From: Sphingobacterium spiritivorum
Lineage (GTDB): Bacteria > Bacteroidota > Bacteroidia > Sphingobacteriales > Sphingobacteriaceae
Direction of reading: 5' to 3'
DNA length: 64,000 nt
Assembly: GCF_016725325.1 (NCBI RefSeq)
Contig: NZ_CP068083.1
Span: 5,022,001-5,086,000, forward strand
Part shown: positions 47,072 through 54,079 of the stretch, piece by piece
Layout: every line of letters begins with the position of its first letter
Numbering within the stretch: position 1 is the stretch's first letter
Notes under the pieces: model-generated
The model's input: only the letters and a program-made list of their open reading frames with translations
Database searches by the model: none
Told to the model about the DNA's origin: nothing
Program-made: the position numbers and the translations under genes

Positions 47072-48214
47072 CTAATCTCTGGGTAATTTATCCGGTCTGC
47101 GCATTTTATAGTCTGTAGCGGTAATTGCATTGAGGAATGCCGCTACGTCCTGTATCTCTTCTTTCGTCAGTTTTAAAGGTTTCATCAGCGGATCAGTCAC
47201 CGGGTACATCGGATCTTTGGCCTTCTGCTCGGCAGTAGCACTATTCATCTGCATACCACTATTATACATATTCAGCAATCCTGTGATATCCCAAAATAAT
47301 CCATTGTGCATCCAGGGGTTTGTACTCATTACATCCCGCAACGATGGTGTACGAAATTTACCTACATCATCCGGATTATGTGTTACATGATAACGTCCCA
47401 GATCTTCATACTTGCGTTTGTAATAAGTCAAACCGATATTATGAAAATCCTCATCTGTAAAATACTGCCCGTTATGGCAATTCATACAACGCGCTTTGGT
47501 TCGGAAAAGATGCAGACCACTGATTTCCTGATCCGAAAGATACTTATATTCGCCATCTAAAAACCGGTCAAACCGGCTTCTCCGGCTGGATATAGTATTC
47601 TGAAATGCTGCCAGAGACTGGGTAATCATATTGAAAGTAATAACATCTGTTCCGAAAGCCTTTTGAAACAGTTCACGGTAAGCTTTATACTGCTGCAGTT
47701 TGGCCGGAAGCTGAGAAGCATCCATTGCCATTTCATTATGTGCCTGGATCGGCCCCAGTACCTGCTCTTCTAATGTAGCGGCTCGTCCGTCCCAGAAAAA
47801 GGTCTTACGGGAATGTGCATTCAGAAGAGAAGGTGTATTACGGTTGCCACTCAGATGATCATGTCCTACAGGCACCTGTACTTTATCTGCCCATGAGGTC
47901 TGCGGATTGTGACAGGAACTACATGAGATCTGATTTGAGCCGGACAATATGGGATCGAAAAAAAGATTTTTACCCAGAATCACTTCCGGGCGTTCCATCA
48001 TAGCAAAATATCCGGTATCAAAGTTAGGCAGAGATTTGAATTCTTCCCATTTCACCCCCGAATCTATAACAGGTCTCGGCCATTCTCCAACCGGACGCTG
48101 ATATAAAGACCGTAAAGAATCCACTCCTATTTGTTCGTGTTGTGACTCAAATCCTTTAAAAGAAAGCAACACTACAAAACCAATTATTAAGCTCAAGATA
48201 ATACCAATCCTCAT
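47072..48214 (-). CDS. Di-haem cytochrome c peroxidase
   Basis: 380 residues with an N-terminal signal or anchor segment (about 2-20). Two haem motifs: CSSCH (98-102) and CMNCH (243-247), with GKNLFFDPILSGSNQIS and KFRTPSLRDV typical of the MauG/CcpA family. It reduces hydrogen peroxide in the periplasm with electrons from cytochrome c. It is divergent from a TonB-receptor operon and shares its 138-base control region, which suggests joint iron- or oxidant-linked control. Confidence 0.93.
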   Translation of the reverse strand: MRIGIILSLIIGFVVLLSFKGFESQHEQIGVDSLRSLYQRPVGEWPRPVIDSGVKWEEFKSLPNFDTGYFAMMERPEVILGKNLFFDPILSGSNQISCSSCHNPQTSWADKVQVPVGHDHLSGNRNTPSLLNAHSRKTFFWDGRAATLEEQVLGPIQAHNEMAMDASQLPAKLQQYKAYRELFQKAFGTDVITFNMITQSLAAFQNTISSRRSRFDRFLDGEYKYLSDQEISGLHLFRTKARCMNCHNGQYFTDEDFHNIGLTYYKRKYEDLGRYHVTHNPDDVGKFRTPSLRDVMSTNPWMHNGLFWDITGLLNMYNSGMQMNSATAEQKAKDPMYPVTDPLMKPLKLTKEEIQDVAAFLNAITATDYKMRRPDKLPRD

Positions 48215-48248
48215 TTTTCGACGTTTCTGGGCACAAAATTAACTTTTT

Positions 48249-48326
48249 TATTTAGATTTAGTATAAATAATTTGCAACTAATCTGTTTCTTTGCGTACTT
48301 TTGCCGTCTATTTAGATTAATTTAAA
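48249..48326. promoter_or_regulatory. Two TATTTAGATT-containing dyads between peroxidase and TonB receptor
   Basis: TATTTAGATT occurs at 48249-48258 and again at 48309-48318, exactly 60 bases apart. The second is the left half of a near-palindrome TTTAGATTAATTTAAA (48311-48326); the first is flanked by TTATTTA / TAAATAA arms. They look like operators for a Fur-like regulator; this is inference. Confidence 0.5.
48271..48303 (+). promoter_or_regulatory. Promoter of the TonB receptor operon
   Basis: TTTG (48271-48274), 21-base spacer, TACTTTTG (48296-48303): an exact match to the Bacteroidota -33/-7 pattern. The predicted start of transcription near 48310 falls on the second dyad, a good site for repression. 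Confidence 0.7.
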
Positions 48327-48352
48327 ATAGAGGTTAACCCAAACTTTTCTGT

Positions 48353-51139
48353 ATGTTTCGTTTTCTGCCTATATATTTATTCTTTGTGCTTGAGGTCACC
48401 TCCATTATAGGAACACCAAATAAATTGTACGCACAACAAAAGACAATAAAAGGTACTCTTACAGATGAACAATCCAAACCACTCGCTTTTGCCAATATAC
48501 AGATTTTAGAAATTGGATTGGATACACGTTCTGATGAGAAAGGATCATACAGTATACAGTTAAACGGAGCAATCCCTTCCAGTTATACCATCCGGTTTTC
48601 ATTCTTAGGAAAGAAGACCATTGAACGGGAGTATAACTTCAATAACATGAGTACAATTCCTCCAGTTACTCTATATAACAATAGTCTGGCTTTAGAGGAA
48701 GTATCTGTGCAAGCTACTAAAGGATCTCAGAGTAATTCCTCTCTCCTCATTGACAGAGATATGATTGAGCGGTATCCATCGTTGAGTCTGAACGATCTGC
48801 TCAACTTGCTCCCTAATAGAAAAGTCTCTGCCCCATCTGTTCAGGAGATGCAGAACATAACTTTAAGAGGAGCATTTGAAGAGACTTCAGGCCGATTTAG
48901 AAATGTGCACGGGATGAGCAATGCTTTCGGTGTCGCCATTATTATGGATGATATTGCGATGAGTAACAATGCAAATATGCAAAGTAGGAATCCAGGTATT
49001 TTTGGATTGAGCGGTTCTAACCTCGCGGTATCGCAATCTGAATACAACCTGACCGGAAATCGGGCTGCTACGGCAAACAGCTACAGTGGAGAGAGCAGTT
49101 TTGGAGGAATAGATTTAAGGCAAATTCCGACAGAGAATATCGAACGTATAGAAGTTATCTCCGGTGTAGCTCCGGTACGCTATGGAGATATATCTGATGG
49201 AGCAATTATTATTGAGAGACAAGCGGGTAAAACTCCAGCGTTTGTTCGTCTTCAAAGCAGAAATAATGCGACCTCATATGGTTTTTCCAAAGGATTCAGT
49301 CTGAGTCCTGCTTTAGGTGATCTAAATGTAGACATGGGATATGTCAATTCCTTTGCAGACAACCGCGATAAGATCAAACAGTATCGCAGAATTAACGGTA
49401 CTGTAATCTGGACAACCAGATTCGGGAATAAAAAACAGTGGAAACATACTCTGCAGGGTACATACAACAAAGTGCTGGATGGAGTAGCCAAAGATGAAGA
49501 TGATACACAATCTACTATAGTAAAATATGGCAACTGGAACTTTAATGCATCAAGCAGGACCAGTTATCAGATTAATAACAGTTTTTTCAAACGTTTTGGA
49601 TTAAATTTAGGCGTTAGCACAGCTCATCAGCAATCTTATAAAGAGTATTATTATAATGACGCTTTTGTCCTTTATACAGACACGTTACAAACTGGAATCG
49701 TAGAAGGAAATTACGATAAAGGTCAATATACTGCCGTTGATCATGTGGATGGAAGGCCCTTAAATCTAACCGGTAGATTAGAAACCAATGCCGTTTGGAA
49801 GATTGGAAACTTAACACACAACATCAATTTTGGTGTCAATGCGGATTATTCTATAAATAATGGAAAAGGAAGACTGGCTGATCCCAGCAGACCCAATAAA
49901 GGCCTAAGCCTTAATACAGAAAGGTATTACGACTTTTCTCTCCTTACGCCTGTAAAGAATTTAGGACTATATCTTGAAGATCAGTTCAAAGCATCCGTTT
50001 TTGGCAATCCGCTTGCTGTATCAGCCGGAGTAAGATGGGATACACAAAATGGTCACCAATCCTTTTCACCACGCACAAATATCAGTTACAGACCCAGCAA
50101 AGAACTACAGCTTGGCCTTGCTTATGGATTATCCTTTAAAGCACCGAGTCTCGCCCATCTCTATCCGGGACCGGTATTTACCGAATACCTGTTATTGAAT
50201 GCATACAACGGAAAACAAGCTGAAAGTACATCAAGAATATATGTCCACCGGTATGATCCGCCAAGTGAACAATTAAAAGCTCAGTATTCGCAAACATTAG
50301 AAGGCTCAGCAATGTGGAATAAACACAACCACTCCGTTCGTGTAAATGCCTTTTTGAAGCAAAACAGAAATGGAATTAATACCATATCTAACCGTGAAAG
50401 ATTAATGTTACCGGTCTATGAAGCAACTCCTGTCACAGGAAGCAAGCCATTAGTGGAAGTCGTTGGAGAAAAAGCCTATATGCTTAATAAAAGAACACTT
50501 CAAAATTCGCTAAGTACAGATAATTACGGGTTTGAAGTACTATACAGTTCTCCAAAGATTGAAGCACTCTACACATCTGTAAATATTGCAGGAGGTCTGA
50601 CTAAAGCGACCTCAAAGAGTAATGCGAAATATGAAGAGAGTTTCAATACTTCAGGTTCTGATCCAAAGGATGTAACCCTCGGAATTTTTAATCCGCTTAA
50701 AAATAACAGCTACCTCAGCAACGCTCGTGTCGGCACAACAACACATTTTCCAAAACTACGTCTCATTATACAAATAATGGCTGACTTTCAACTCCTTAAT
50801 TATTCCTCACTTACAGACATCCAATACTATCCGATAGCATACTACACCAGGGATCTAACCTACTATGAGGTTACAAAATATGACCCTCAAAACCCTGCAC
50901 ATCTCTATTTGTATGAACAAAGAGTAAAAAAAATGAAAGATTACAATAGTGAAAACGATGGTATCTTCTGCAATTTCAATCTTAGTATGGCTAAAGAAAT
51001 CAATAAAAACTTACGTCTGTCTTTTAATGTATACAACTTCTTAGATTATCAGCCCAGATATTATATAGTTCAAAACACTACCGTGAAAACACCTAATTCT
51101 TCACCTAATTATGGCGCACAGATTACCTATAAATTTTAA
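48353..51139 (+). CDS. TonB-dependent outer-membrane receptor
   Basis: 928 residues: signal peptide ending LYAQQ, carboxypeptidase D-like domain (KGTLTDEQSKPLAFANIQIL), plug (ALEEVSVQATKG as TonB-box region, RNVHGMSNAFGVAIIMDDI, NIERIEVISGVAPVRYGDIS) and a 22-strand-type barrel ending NYGAQITYKF. Not SusC-like: it lacks the SusC plug signature and no SusD gene follows. With the DUF4876 and DUF6850-type genes behind it and the peroxidase gene opposite, uptake of an iron, haem or other metal complex is the likely role. Confidence 0.9.
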   Translation: MFRFLPIYLFFVLEVTSIIGTPNKLYAQQKTIKGTLTDEQSKPLAFANIQILEIGLDTRSDEKGSYSIQLNGAIPSSYTIRFSFLGKKTIEREYNFNNMSTIPPVTLYNNSLALEEVSVQATKGSQSNSSLLIDRDMIERYPSLSLNDLLNLLPNRKVSAPSVQEMQNITLRGAFEETSGRFRNVHGMSNAFGVAIIMDDIAMSNNANMQSRNPGIFGLSGSNLAVSQSEYNLTGNRAATANSYSGESSFGGIDLRQIPTENIERIEVISGVAPVRYGDISDGAIIIERQAGKTPAFVRLQSRNNATSYGFSKGFSLSPALGDLNVDMGYVNSFADNRDKIKQYRRINGTVIWTTRFGNKKQWKHTLQGTYNKVLDGVAKDEDDTQSTIVKYGNWNFNASSRTSYQINNSFFKRFGLNLGVSTAHQQSYKEYYYNDAFVLYTDTLQTGIVEGNYDKGQYTAVDHVDGRPLNLTGRLETNAVWKIGNLTHNINFGVNADYSINNGKGRLADPSRPNKGLSLNTERYYDFSLLTPVKNLGLYLEDQFKASVFGNPLAVSAGVRWDTQNGHQSFSPRTNISYRPSKELQLGLAYGLSFKAPSLAHLYPGPVFTEYLLLNAYNGKQAESTSRIYVHRYDPPSEQLKAQYSQTLEGSAMWNKHNHSVRVNAFLKQNRNGINTISNRERLMLPVYEATPVTGSKPLVEVVGEKAYMLNKRTLQNSLSTDNYGFEVLYSSPKIEALYTSVNIAGGLTKATSKSNAKYEESFNTSGSDPKDVTLGIFNPLKNNSYLSNARVGTTTHFPKLRLIIQIMADFQLLNYSSLTDIQYYPIAYYTRDLTYYEVTKYDPQNPAHLYLYEQRVKKMKDYNSENDGIFCNFNLSMAKEINKNLRLSFNVYNFLDYQPRYYIVQNTTVKTPNSSPNYGAQITYKF

Positions 51140-51156
51140 CACTATATTTTAATAAC

Positions 51157-52470
51157 ATGAAAAAAATACTTTACCTTTTCATCCTACTACTCCCGTTTGC
51201 GGCATGTAAAAAGGAAACTCCGGATGTTGCAACAATAGATGTTGATTTAAAGATCAATTACTCCAATACTGATTTTCAAAAAACCTTTCCTTTGAAAAAT
51301 ATTCAGATAACATTAAGAAATCTGTCTACAAATGTTGTCACAAAATATGTTGCAAACGGAGGTACTTTTCAGATTGCCGGATTAGCACCGGGATCATATG
51401 ACATAGATGCATCTGTAACTATTCCCAGACAAGAATACACTACTCTTGCCGGAGAAGATCCCGGAACAGACATTACATTTAATGCATCCAATAAAAGAGT
51501 ATCTCTGATTGACGCTACATCACTTGAATTTAATTTGATTGCCGGGCAGACAGGCTCATTTGTAATCAAACAAATCTACTATGCAGGATCAGATAACAAG
51601 GAAGGAGCGCTGTACAGAGATCAGTTTATAGAAATATACAACAATACAGATCAGGTTCTTTATGCTGACAGTCTTTATTTCGGTCGTTTGTATGGAAGAC
51701 AGAGTACCAGAACGGCTACGACTCATATACAGGCCAATGGTCAGCATGACTGGAGTAAATCTCTTAACATGACTGTAGGAAATGCTGCTAATACAGATTA
51801 TGTATATGGTCGTGATTTATTTATGGTTCCGGGAACAGGGAAAAATTATCCGGTACAGCCTGGTCAAAGCATTATTATTGCGCAAAACGCACTGAACCAT
51901 AAAATTCCTTTTATAGGAGCAGATGGTAAAGAAGTTCCGATTAAAAAACCTGAATTAACAGTTGACCTGAGCGGTGCAAATTTTGAAGTATATTATGGTA
52001 AACTACCGAGTATAAACCCTTTACCATCCGATATTGACAATCCTTCCGTACCTAATGTTGATATTATCGACTATGAAGCGCGTGACTGGATCCTGGACAG
52101 TCCGGGAAGAGATTCTTATTTTATATTTAAAGGACAAACACGCCAGGCAGTAGAAGCACTGAAAAGCTACTATGAACCGACTTTATCAGCTCCGTCAGCA
52201 AGTGCAAAAACATACAGACAGATCCCATCAGCATGGTTAATGGATGCTGTAGAAGTTCAACCTAATCTACCAGATAGCCGTATACCTAAAAAATTACTTC
52301 CTGCATTTGATTCAGGATATACATTCGCAACAGACGGCTCTTATTCTTCACAATCTGTTATCCGCAAAACAGCGACTACTGTCTCAGGCCGGAGAGTATT
52401 GAAAGATACAAATAACTCAACAGAAGATTTTACAGTAATAAAAGCAAACCCAAGAGGATTTGCAGACTAA
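51157..52470 (+). CDS. DUF4876 lipoprotein
   Basis: 437 residues with lipobox FAAC (Cys17). The N-terminal 110 residues resemble a carboxypeptidase-like/Ig fold (FPLKNIQITLRNLSTNVVTK, GTFQIAGLAPGSYDIDAS), followed by the DUF4876 core with FVIKQIYYAGSDNKEGALYRD and QFIEIYNNTDQVLYADSLY. Typical partner of the preceding TonB receptor, 17 bases after its stop. Probably a surface-exposed ligand-binding lipoprotein. Confidence 0.85.
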   Translation: MKKILYLFILLLPFAACKKETPDVATIDVDLKINYSNTDFQKTFPLKNIQITLRNLSTNVVTKYVANGGTFQIAGLAPGSYDIDASVTIPRQEYTTLAGEDPGTDITFNASNKRVSLIDATSLEFNLIAGQTGSFVIKQIYYAGSDNKEGALYRDQFIEIYNNTDQVLYADSLYFGRLYGRQSTRTATTHIQANGQHDWSKSLNMTVGNAANTDYVYGRDLFMVPGTGKNYPVQPGQSIIIAQNALNHKIPFIGADGKEVPIKKPELTVDLSGANFEVYYGKLPSINPLPSDIDNPSVPNVDIIDYEARDWILDSPGRDSYFIFKGQTRQAVEALKSYYEPTLSAPSASAKTYRQIPSAWLMDAVEVQPNLPDSRIPKKLLPAFDSGYTFATDGSYSSQSVIRKTATTVSGRRVLKDTNNSTEDFTVIKANPRGFAD

Positions 52471-52477
52471 TAACTGA

Positions 52478-52506
52478 GCGTGTCTTTTTACAAAGACACG
52501 CTTTCT
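52478..52506 (+). terminator. Hairpin between the DUF4876 and barrel genes
   Basis: GCGTGTCTTT (52478-52487) / AAAGACACGC (52492-52501), 4-base loop, then TTTCT. It is a good terminator-like hairpin in the 52-base gap, seven bases after the stop codon, and may reduce read-through into the last gene. Confidence 0.7.
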
Positions 52507-52522
52507 ATTCTTTTCTATTCAA

Positions 52523-54079
52523 ATGAAAGCATACATAAAGTATTTCTATTTAGGCCTGATAGTTTTTCTTCCATCTCACAGAATTGTGGCTCAGCAATAT
52601 CCTGTTATTGACAGTATATCCAACATTAGCTATTCCACACATTCGGTATATATGAGAAGTTATCAGATGGCTGCCCAAAACAGTGTATGGATGTCAAAAG
52701 AAGTAAAGAATAACTTTAATCAGATCCTGATTGCCGGCAACTATAATACCGGGGATTTTATTGCTTCACAGGATGCAACCAGGCTCAGAAAACTGCAAGT
52801 ACAAACTGAAGGAAAAACAGAATGGAGAGGAACTCAGCTTTGGGGTAAATTTGCCTATTCCAAACAAATGGAAGACAGCACAAGATTAAGACATCAGACA
52901 AGGTGGAATGAGGACGCTCCTGTTTATTATGGTTCTTTAAAAAACAATTATTATGAGCGGGATACCTACAAGTTAGATGCAGGAATTCAGCATGTTTTTT
53001 TCAACAACCGTATTCCTGTGACATTAGATCTCGATTACCGGGTAGGAAATAATTTTTCAAACAATGATCCCAGAGGAGATGTCAAAGATCACAATTTCAA
53101 TACCGCACTATCAGTAGGTTATCAAACTGAAAAATGGATCTACCATTTAAGAGGCTTGTACGGATATGGAAGAGAACGTGTAAATGTTGCATTTAAAAAC
53201 AGTAAATACACTGAAAATACATCAGATCCGCTATACGTAAATTGGTTTATGAATGGATATGGAAATGCTATTGAACGTATTAAAGATATCAATTACAATA
53301 ATGACCTCAAAAGACATGGTATCAGTGTCCATGTACGTCATCAGTTAAACAGAGAGCAGCGTCTTTATGTTAATCTTGCAACTATTCAGGAAGAACAATT
53401 TTTTAAACAATACAATATTTCAGTATTGACCTATATCCCAATGAATAAATATAAAAGGGATAGTTATACTGCTTCTGCATTGTGGATATTAGAAAAAGAC
53501 CTGAATCATCAGACAGCTGTGGGATTAGAAGGAGGAATTATTGACGGGCGGGATTTTAACTACGATCTGATGAAGAATAATTATCTGTATCGTCAGGAAT
53601 ACGTAAAAGCAGATGCTACACAAGTATGGAGAAGCTATCAGTTCAATGGAATAATAGGCTATCAGTCTGAAGATAAAAAAGAAGGATTAACAGGTAATCA
53701 CATCTCGATTTCCACAATGACTGCAGGATTGGGAACTAAAAAAACATTTAACTTAACGAGACTAACAGATTTAATTGGATCTCTGCGTATAAGACATAGG
53801 CTACCGATAGCGCAGGAATTACTTCTACCTGTCACCAATTCGGGTGTATTTGCCAAAACGTTAATATACCATGACTATCTGTACAATGCCTCCTCTTCAA
53901 CTGAAGTTGGCACTTCATGGGGATTTAATATTAACAAAATTAAAAGTTCGGCATGGCGCTTCTCTTTTGATATTGACTACGAGATGAGAAATAAGTTACC
54001 AACTTATTCCTTTGATCCTCTTTCTGTACCTGGAAAAAACAGAACAAGGCTAGGTGCACAAATTGCTTATTTATTCTGA
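52523..54079 (+). CDS. DUF6850-type outer-membrane beta-barrel protein
   Basis: 518 residues with a signal peptide (ending RIVAQQ) and beta-hairpin repeats with alternating aromatic residues throughout, ending RTRLGAQIAYLF as barrel proteins do. The match to the DUF6850 family is from its usual place behind DUF4876 genes and its general look. It has no plug domain. A second pore or accessory of the TonB receptor is possible. Confidence 0.75.
   Translation: MKAYIKYFYLGLIVFLPSHRIVAQQYPVIDSISNISYSTHSVYMRSYQMAAQNSVWMSKEVKNNFNQILIAGNYNTGDFIASQDATRLRKLQVQTEGKTEWRGTQLWGKFAYSKQMEDSTRLRHQTRWNEDAPVYYGSLKNNYYERDTYKLDAGIQHVFFNNRIPVTLDLDYRVGNNFSNNDPRGDVKDHNFNTALSVGYQTEKWIYHLRGLYGYGRERVNVAFKNSKYTENTSDPLYVNWFMNGYGNAIERIKDINYNNDLKRHGISVHVRHQLNREQRLYVNLATIQEEQFFKQYNISVLTYIPMNKYKRDSYTASALWILEKDLNHQTAVGLEGGIIDGRDFNYDLMKNNYLYRQEYVKADATQVWRSYQFNGIIGYQSEDKKEGLTGNHISISTMTAGLGTKKTFNLTRLTDLIGSLRIRHRLPIAQELLLPVTNSGVFAKTLIYHDYLYNASSSTEVGTSWGFNINKIKSSAWRFSFDIDYEMRNKLPTYSFDPLSVPGKNRTRLGAQIAYLF

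Follow-up and report, generated by a model that had tools for sequence, protein, structure and literature searches.

The element described here is a four-gene cassette of Sphingobacterium spiritivorum, located within a stretch of 64,000 nucleotides (the window; positions 5,022,001 to 5,086,000 of contig NZ_CP068083.1). A gene for a di-haem protein of the CCP_MauG family, referred to below as the peroxidase gene, is divergent from the genes for a TonB-dependent receptor, a DUF4876 lipoprotein and a DUF6850 outer-membrane barrel. Based on all analyses, it was concluded that this is very probably an iron-controlled uptake cassette, a view that was well supported because its Fur-type boxes are shared with the iron regulon and induction of related loci by iron starvation has been published. 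The full explanation, namely a Fur-controlled uptake cassette together with an enzyme that oxidizes a protein of the same cassette, was given an even chance of being correct. The evidence consisted of a conserved gene set, Fur-type boxes common to an iron regulon, MauG-type residues in the di-haem protein, a conserved tryptophan of DUF4876 (Trp199) and a barrel prediction for DUF6850. Pairs of a TonB receptor and a surface lipoprotein decide the access to iron, vitamins and glycans in communities rich in Bacteroidota. The cassette was classed with this kind, and no account of it as a system was found in the literature searched.

All four genes were located by coordinates and Pfam profile search where the original prediction had placed them, with the peroxidase gene divergent from the receptor-DUF4876-DUF6850 genes and one short control region between. 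The di-haem gene occupies positions 47072-48214 of the reverse strand (380 aa; CCP_MauG, E 6.9e-55). The forward strand carries the receptor gene at 48353-51139 (928 aa; CarbopepD_reg_2, plug and barrel domains), the DUF4876 gene at 51157-52470 (437 aa; E 2.2e-33) and the DUF6850 gene at 52523-54079 (518 aa; E 7.3e-66). The control region common to the peroxidase and the receptor comprises 138 bp (48215-48352).

It was proposed that under iron limitation Fur would leave both boxes of the control region and both promoters would fire. The DUF4876 protein would sit above the TonB receptor at the cell surface and bind a ligand that carries iron (a siderophore, haem or protein-bound iron). The receptor would import this ligand with TonB energy, and DUF6850 would act as an additional barrel dedicated to the machine. 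The di-haem protein would be a periplasmic enzyme of the MauG/MbnH type. With peroxide it would oxidize a residue of a protein, most likely Trp199 in DUF4876 that has yet to be exported, and so finish a metal- or ligand-binding site. This maturation step was modelled on the proposals made for CorA by CorB and for MbnP by MbnH. If it is true, the CorA/MbnP maturation principle would be carried over from copper to iron, protein-derived cofactors would extend to iron uptake, and a mass shift at one residue is predicted.

The control region contains two palindromic boxes of 21 bp at a spacing of 60 bp, each tied to one of two back-to-back promoters of the Bacteroidota type. The first box, TATTTAGATTTAGTATAAATA (48249-48269), has one mismatch to the palindrome and lies 35 bp from the peroxidase ATG; the peroxidase -7 element, TAATTTTG (48234-48241, reverse strand), is of the TAnnTTTG form. 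The receptor promoter (48271-48303, forward strand) consists of TTTG at 48271-48274, a 21-bp spacer and TACTTTTG at 48296-48303, and the second box, TATTTAGATTAATTTAAAATA (48309-48329, two mismatches), covers the position at which transcription of the receptor operon is expected to begin. This footprint was conserved in ten related divergent loci, a few of them without one element. The peroxidase-strand TAnnTTTG element was present in nine of the ten and was not listed in L137, the receptor -7 element was likewise present in 9/10, and the 60-bp spacing recurred in L101, L124, L125, L137 and L257.

Because no published Fur-box consensus for Bacteroidota was found in the literature search, the box was identified from the organism's own regulon. 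The pattern gave 54 sites in the host genome and 12 for a reversed control. The best sites precede genes for a siderophore-interacting protein, HmuY, a periplasmic binding protein, ferritin, an ABC exporter and many TonB receptors, which is the putative Fur regulon. The cassette has, at the level of sequence, an operator at its promoter that is common to iron genes, and binding by Fur is predicted. A box precedes the receptor or its cognate sigma factor gene in all four DUF4876 systems of the host genome; across loci, a box with at most three mismatches was present upstream of 137/180 receptors (0.2 in shuffled sequences) and before the sigma factor gene in eight of the ten FecR-type loci.

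The published expression data agreed with this picture. PG1019-22 of Porphyromonas gingivalis were induced 21- to 214-fold and BT3631-33 of Bacteroides thetaiotaomicron more than 110-fold by iron depletion (PMC10434189). In published RNA-seq data, few loci of Porphyromonas and Bacteroides respond to iron starvation as strongly as those with DUF4876. A P. gingivalis DUF4876 gene also responded strongly to haemin availability (PMC10470040). Hence, the iron or haem uptake put forward in the original prediction was supported both by the boxes of the classic iron regulon and by these data. The loci PG1019-PG1022, BT1933-BT1939 and BT3625-BT3633 resemble the cassette in combining DUF4876 with an iron-depletion-induced TonB-dependent receptor, whereas no peroxidase is present in the quoted annotations, and they are termed only an outer membrane transport system (PMC10434189). 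The literature search on DUF4876 returned expression data only.

The conservation of the gene set was investigated in two sets of neighbourhoods. For the survey, 120 neighbourhoods were fetched by a DUF4876 match, and the survey set counted 124 loci with 126 DUF4876 open reading frames; the second set comprised 80 independently fetched neighbourhoods from named organisms, with species partly shared with the first. DUF6850 was present in the locus for 125 of the 126 DUF4876 frames and for 80/80 complete DUF4876 genes, respectively. In the host genome itself, four DUF4876 and four DUF6850 genes were found, adjacent in all four cases and each behind a TonB receptor; the two genes are likewise adjacent in about 200 relatives. 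The genetic linkage of DUF4876 and DUF6850 is very strong, and it provides the first context for DUF6850, a family mentioned in no paper found by the literature search.

The peroxidase was local in about 88/126 cases of the survey set and in 73/81 loci of the second set, and a closely related peroxidase was the usual fourth gene across several Bacteroidota orders. The hosts included Sphingobacterium, Pedobacter, Parapedobacter, Nubsella, Mucilaginibacter, Chitinophaga, Filimonas, Rufibacter, Flavobacterium (including F. johnsoniae), Mesonia and Psychroflexus. A CCP_MauG gene was also held by three of the four DUF4876 systems of the host genome; conversely, three of its six CCP_MauG genes adjoin such systems, when about 0.1 would be expected arithmetically within 10 kb. 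The grouping lies well beyond what chance would give. In two sibling systems the peroxidase gene closes the operon, with a pair of extracytoplasmic function (ECF) sigma factor and FecR genes nearby, whereas the copy in the window is divergent. A count over 400 genomes of the order gave 120 with both the close-type peroxidase and DUF4876, 4 with the peroxidase only, 28 with DUF4876 only and 248 with neither (Fisher 1e-68, a p-value that ignores relatedness and is descriptive only).

When long-form DUF4876 genes without a local peroxidase were checked, a 52-68% identical copy was present elsewhere in 8/8 genomes. Two of these distant copies adjoin the other, short DUF4876 gene of the same genome, and in one case (G442) a contig break is possible. 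Upstream of each of the stand-alone copies (L223, L225-L227) there is a separate Fur-type box with 2-3 mismatches. About 14 short-form loci hold a gene for a HEAT-repeat protein with protease-like motifs instead of the peroxidase. A sibling system of the host genome is of this type (L015:6844-9060, with about 14 relatives), and its fourth gene encodes GHG and NSC motifs like those of cysteine proteases of clan CD. Only the HEAT repeats gave matches in Pfam and the PDB, and the protease-like label rests on the visible motifs. A HEAT-repeat protein is likewise listed for BT1933-39.

Further, the proteins of the cassette were analyzed individually. The receptor had no SusC/RagA match in NCBIfam and no STN domain in the domain search, and its best NCBIfam matches, to FepA, B12, CirA and haemin receptors, were weak. 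The gene downstream encodes DUF4876 and not SusD. A SusCD-like glycan system was rejected, as the SusC/SusD signature was missing in Pfam and NCBIfam.

The DUF6850 protein scored 223.6 bits against its family (PF21012; gathering cut-off 27). It has a signal peptide followed by N-terminal helices (28-60 in the model), and the AlphaFold2 model contained 18 long strands with a mean predicted local distance difference test (pLDDT) value of 90.9. Comparison of the sequence with the PDB gave chance matches only, mostly antibodies, and the fold search returned generic barrels only (query-length TM-score up to about 0.42, root-mean-square deviation mostly at least 10 Å). The protein was therefore modelled with confidence as an 18-strand outer-membrane barrel without a close solved relative.

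The DUF4876 protein scored 116.3 bits against PF16215 (gathering cut-off 27.9), and its model best matched the crystal structure of BT_1938 (4q1z; Foldseek E 1.9e-25), a DUF4876 protein of the iron-responsive BT1933-BT1939 locus. The original prediction had both DUF families without a known function; this is still true, but DUF4876 is known structurally through BT_1938. The protein of the window carries lipobox Cys17 followed by KKE. Among relatives the lipid cysteine was invariant and often followed by Lys-Lys-Asp/Glu, which is a known surface-export pattern in Bacteroidota, and the protein would be exposed at the cell surface.

The receptor, the lipoprotein and the second barrel may form a physical complex. 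The linkage supports an uptake pair of the Xus or BtuG kind, in which the lipoprotein would act as a ligand-binding lid on the receptor. XusA-XusB and BtuB-BtuG likewise pair a TonB receptor with a surface lipoprotein, from which the captured ligand passes to the receptor, and Xus is iron-regulated (PMC13142918). XusB, however, is a beta-propeller (DUF4374), whereas DUF4876 has another fold (4q1z), and the description of Xus includes an inner-membrane reductase, XusC, and neither a second barrel nor a MauG-like enzyme (PMC13142918). A second likeness is HmuY-HmuR, as a Fur-boxed lipoprotein/receptor set is present in the host genome (L206), but DUF4876 showed no match to HmuY (PF14064), and the MauG-like protein of the HmuY cluster is without the axial tyrosine. 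There (L206:681-4775 and L221:3360-6693), the genes for HmuY and a TonB receptor are Fur-boxed, and the cluster behind them encodes a MauG-like lipoprotein with the axial tyrosine replaced by leucine, as well as proteins resembling S41 peptidases and haem oxygenases.

The di-haem protein has a Sec-type N-terminus without a lipobox. Two CxxCH motifs (98-102 and 243-247) and the bridging Trp141 place it in the di-haem CCP/MauG superfamily. In MauG and MbnH a tyrosine is the ligand of the second haem, where peroxide-removing cytochrome c peroxidases (CCPs) have methionine. Tyr317 (codon 47264-47266) aligned with this tyrosine of MauG and MbnH (6e1c), and ligation of the second haem by it is predicted. 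Both motifs, Trp141 and Tyr317 were invariant in 121/121 distinct linked relatives, so that tyrosine, and not the methionine of a classical bacterial CCP, was present in all of them. It was proposed that the enzyme most likely works like MauG or MbnH though it is not filed as either, and that a protein-modifying role is more likely than peroxide defence. Many 'cytochrome c peroxidase' annotations in Bacteroidota were flagged as probably wrong on function.

The gene context was similar to that of protein-modifying MauG relatives. Two other Tyr-type copies of the host genome, outside the DUF4876 systems, each follow a gene for an MbnP lipoprotein, and a Tyr-type enzyme beside its own lipoprotein is an established arrangement in this genome because of these two tandem MbnP-MauG-like gene pairs. 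They lie at L220:5783-9706 (genome positions 4935782-4939705), downstream of a gene for a YtkA-like protein, possibly in a copper-related operon. The MbnP-linked enzymes have lipobox-like N-termini, whereas the enzyme of the window has none, and no Pfam match was found between MbnP (PF20243) and DUF4876. The pairs CorA-CorB and MopE-SACCP of methanotrophs are also alike, as a surface protein induced by metal starvation is encoded with a di-haem MauG-like protein; kynurenine is formed from tryptophan at the metal site and the MauG-like protein is proposed as its maker (PMC3912023). The differences are a copper-type instead of an iron-type regulation, another protein family and, in the part of that source covered, a unit to which neither a TonB receptor nor a second barrel is said to belong.

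A candidate target was found in DUF4876. The long form carries an insert with a Gln-x-Asp-Trp motif, the tryptophan of which is Trp199 in the window (codon 51751-51753). It lies in a confidently modelled region, was present in 82/82 long forms and in 41/41 across orders, and was the sole invariant tryptophan. In the tree of DUF4876, the long form (about 430-490 aa) was one well-supported clade nearly always accompanied by the peroxidase, and a second, short-form clade was peroxidase-linked as well.

Several results weighed against an oxidation of Trp199 by a MauG-type enzyme. The full-length enzyme had ordinary CCPs as its best PDB matches in phmmer (E down to 4e-48), and it scored below the cut-offs of the NCBIfam families MauG (TIGR03791; 205.6 versus 443.85 bits) and MbnH (TIGR04039; 207.4 versus 362.85 bits), as did the MbnP-linked copies of the host genome. 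A test of independent pairs gave no support for coevolution of Trp199 and the peroxidase, and this proof failed because the insert arose once, in a single clade. Short forms without the peroxidase keep a clade-specific tryptophan of their own (alignment column 374), and the peroxidase-linked short clade is without Trp199 and has its own invariant tryptophan at column 573, so that another target would be needed there. Structural constraints, moreover, often keep a tryptophan invariant. Finally, iron starvation also induces DUF4876 loci of other species whose annotation lists no peroxidase, and the general function therefore does not depend on the enzyme.

Taken together, an action of the enzyme on some protein of the cassette was considered slightly short of an even chance. 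Trp199 may be its target, though this was held to be doubtful, and the single-origin correlation was treated as a lead and not as a result. The most specific version would be a so far undescribed way of acquiring iron in Bacteroidota: the surface lipoprotein supplying the TonB receptor would carry a cofactor built from one of its own residues by the MauG-type enzyme (kynurenine at Trp199, for example), and a second, dedicated barrel would assist. It was judged marginally more doubtful still.

Four other explanations were weighed. The di-haem protein could oxidize an imported siderophore, haem or other chelator in the periplasm, freeing the iron, while the remaining three proteins capture and transport the ligand. 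The enzyme gene shares Fur-type control with the receptor gene and in most cases belongs to the same operon, the HmuY cluster, which also has a haem-oxygenase-like gene, shows that di-haem enzymes recur in iron uptake, and a Fur-boxed esterase beside a sibling system shows that this biology includes ligand processing. However, the axial tyrosine is the hallmark of the protein-modifying MauG and MbnH, the other Tyr-type copies pair with MbnP, and the HmuY-cluster enzyme with leucine at this position is of a different type. This explanation was regarded as unlikely, though the strongest of the four.

It was held somewhat less probable that the peroxidase is a passenger, often kept near the cassette because both share Fur control and a history, but with no joint function with DUF4876. 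Such a view agrees with the single origin of the Trp199 link and with the short forms that have a protease-like partner or none and no peroxidase, but the peroxidase is conserved across several orders, is retained in the genome in 8/8 non-adjacent long-form cases, and occurs without DUF4876 in only 4 of 124 peroxidase-bearing genomes.

Import of another cargo by the iron-regulated cassette (copper, or an iron-sparing cofactor, for instance cobalamin or a haem precursor), with the enzyme making a copper site like that of CorA or MbnP, was thought improbable to a slightly greater degree. CorA and MopE are copper-starvation surface proteins with kynurenine in the copper site (PMC3912023), and the B12 receptor family is among the weak matches of the receptor. 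These points are opposed by the boxes of the iron regulon, by the published induction through iron or haemin limitation, and by a single invariant histidine in DUF4876 (His248) where CorA has two.

The least probable was iron uptake with plain peroxide defence, in which a periplasmic CCP would remove peroxide during iron import: the CCP-like PDB matches of the full sequence favour it, and PG1019/1020 were raised in an oxidative-stress study, but moving together with the hmu genes (PMC10101095), while the invariant tyrosine in place of the methionine ligand, the control by iron-type boxes and a genomic loyalty to one lipoprotein-receptor set, unusual for a general scavenger, all speak against it. 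Peroxide detoxification as the main role was rejected on the axial tyrosine and the iron-type operators, and the peroxide protection suggested in the original prediction gave way to protein modification as the preferred reading.

The gap between the DUF4876 and DUF6850 genes contains an intercistronic hairpin on the forward strand (52476-52503; 12-bp stem, z -6.5), and hairpins of other sequence occupy the equivalent position in related Sphingobacterium loci. It is possibly a partial terminator or an mRNA stabilizer and could control the ratio of the DUF4876 and DUF6850 proteins. The cassette is flanked by a thiamine cluster upstream and a convergent M1 peptidase gene downstream, neither of which appears to be a member of it.

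Some further genes were observed. A lipoprotein resembling, by eye, clostripain-type proteases is encoded at L222:2671-3795, beside the peroxidase of the L075 locus, in which the gene order is swapped to DUF6850-DUF4876. A gene for a MAC/perforin-domain lipoprotein lies directly behind a Fur-type box with one mismatch (L204:3802-5400). Beside a sibling DUF4876 system, a Fur-boxed esterase gene (PF00756) is followed by a gene for a YncE-like propeller protein (L017:13876-16224), which suggests siderophore processing.

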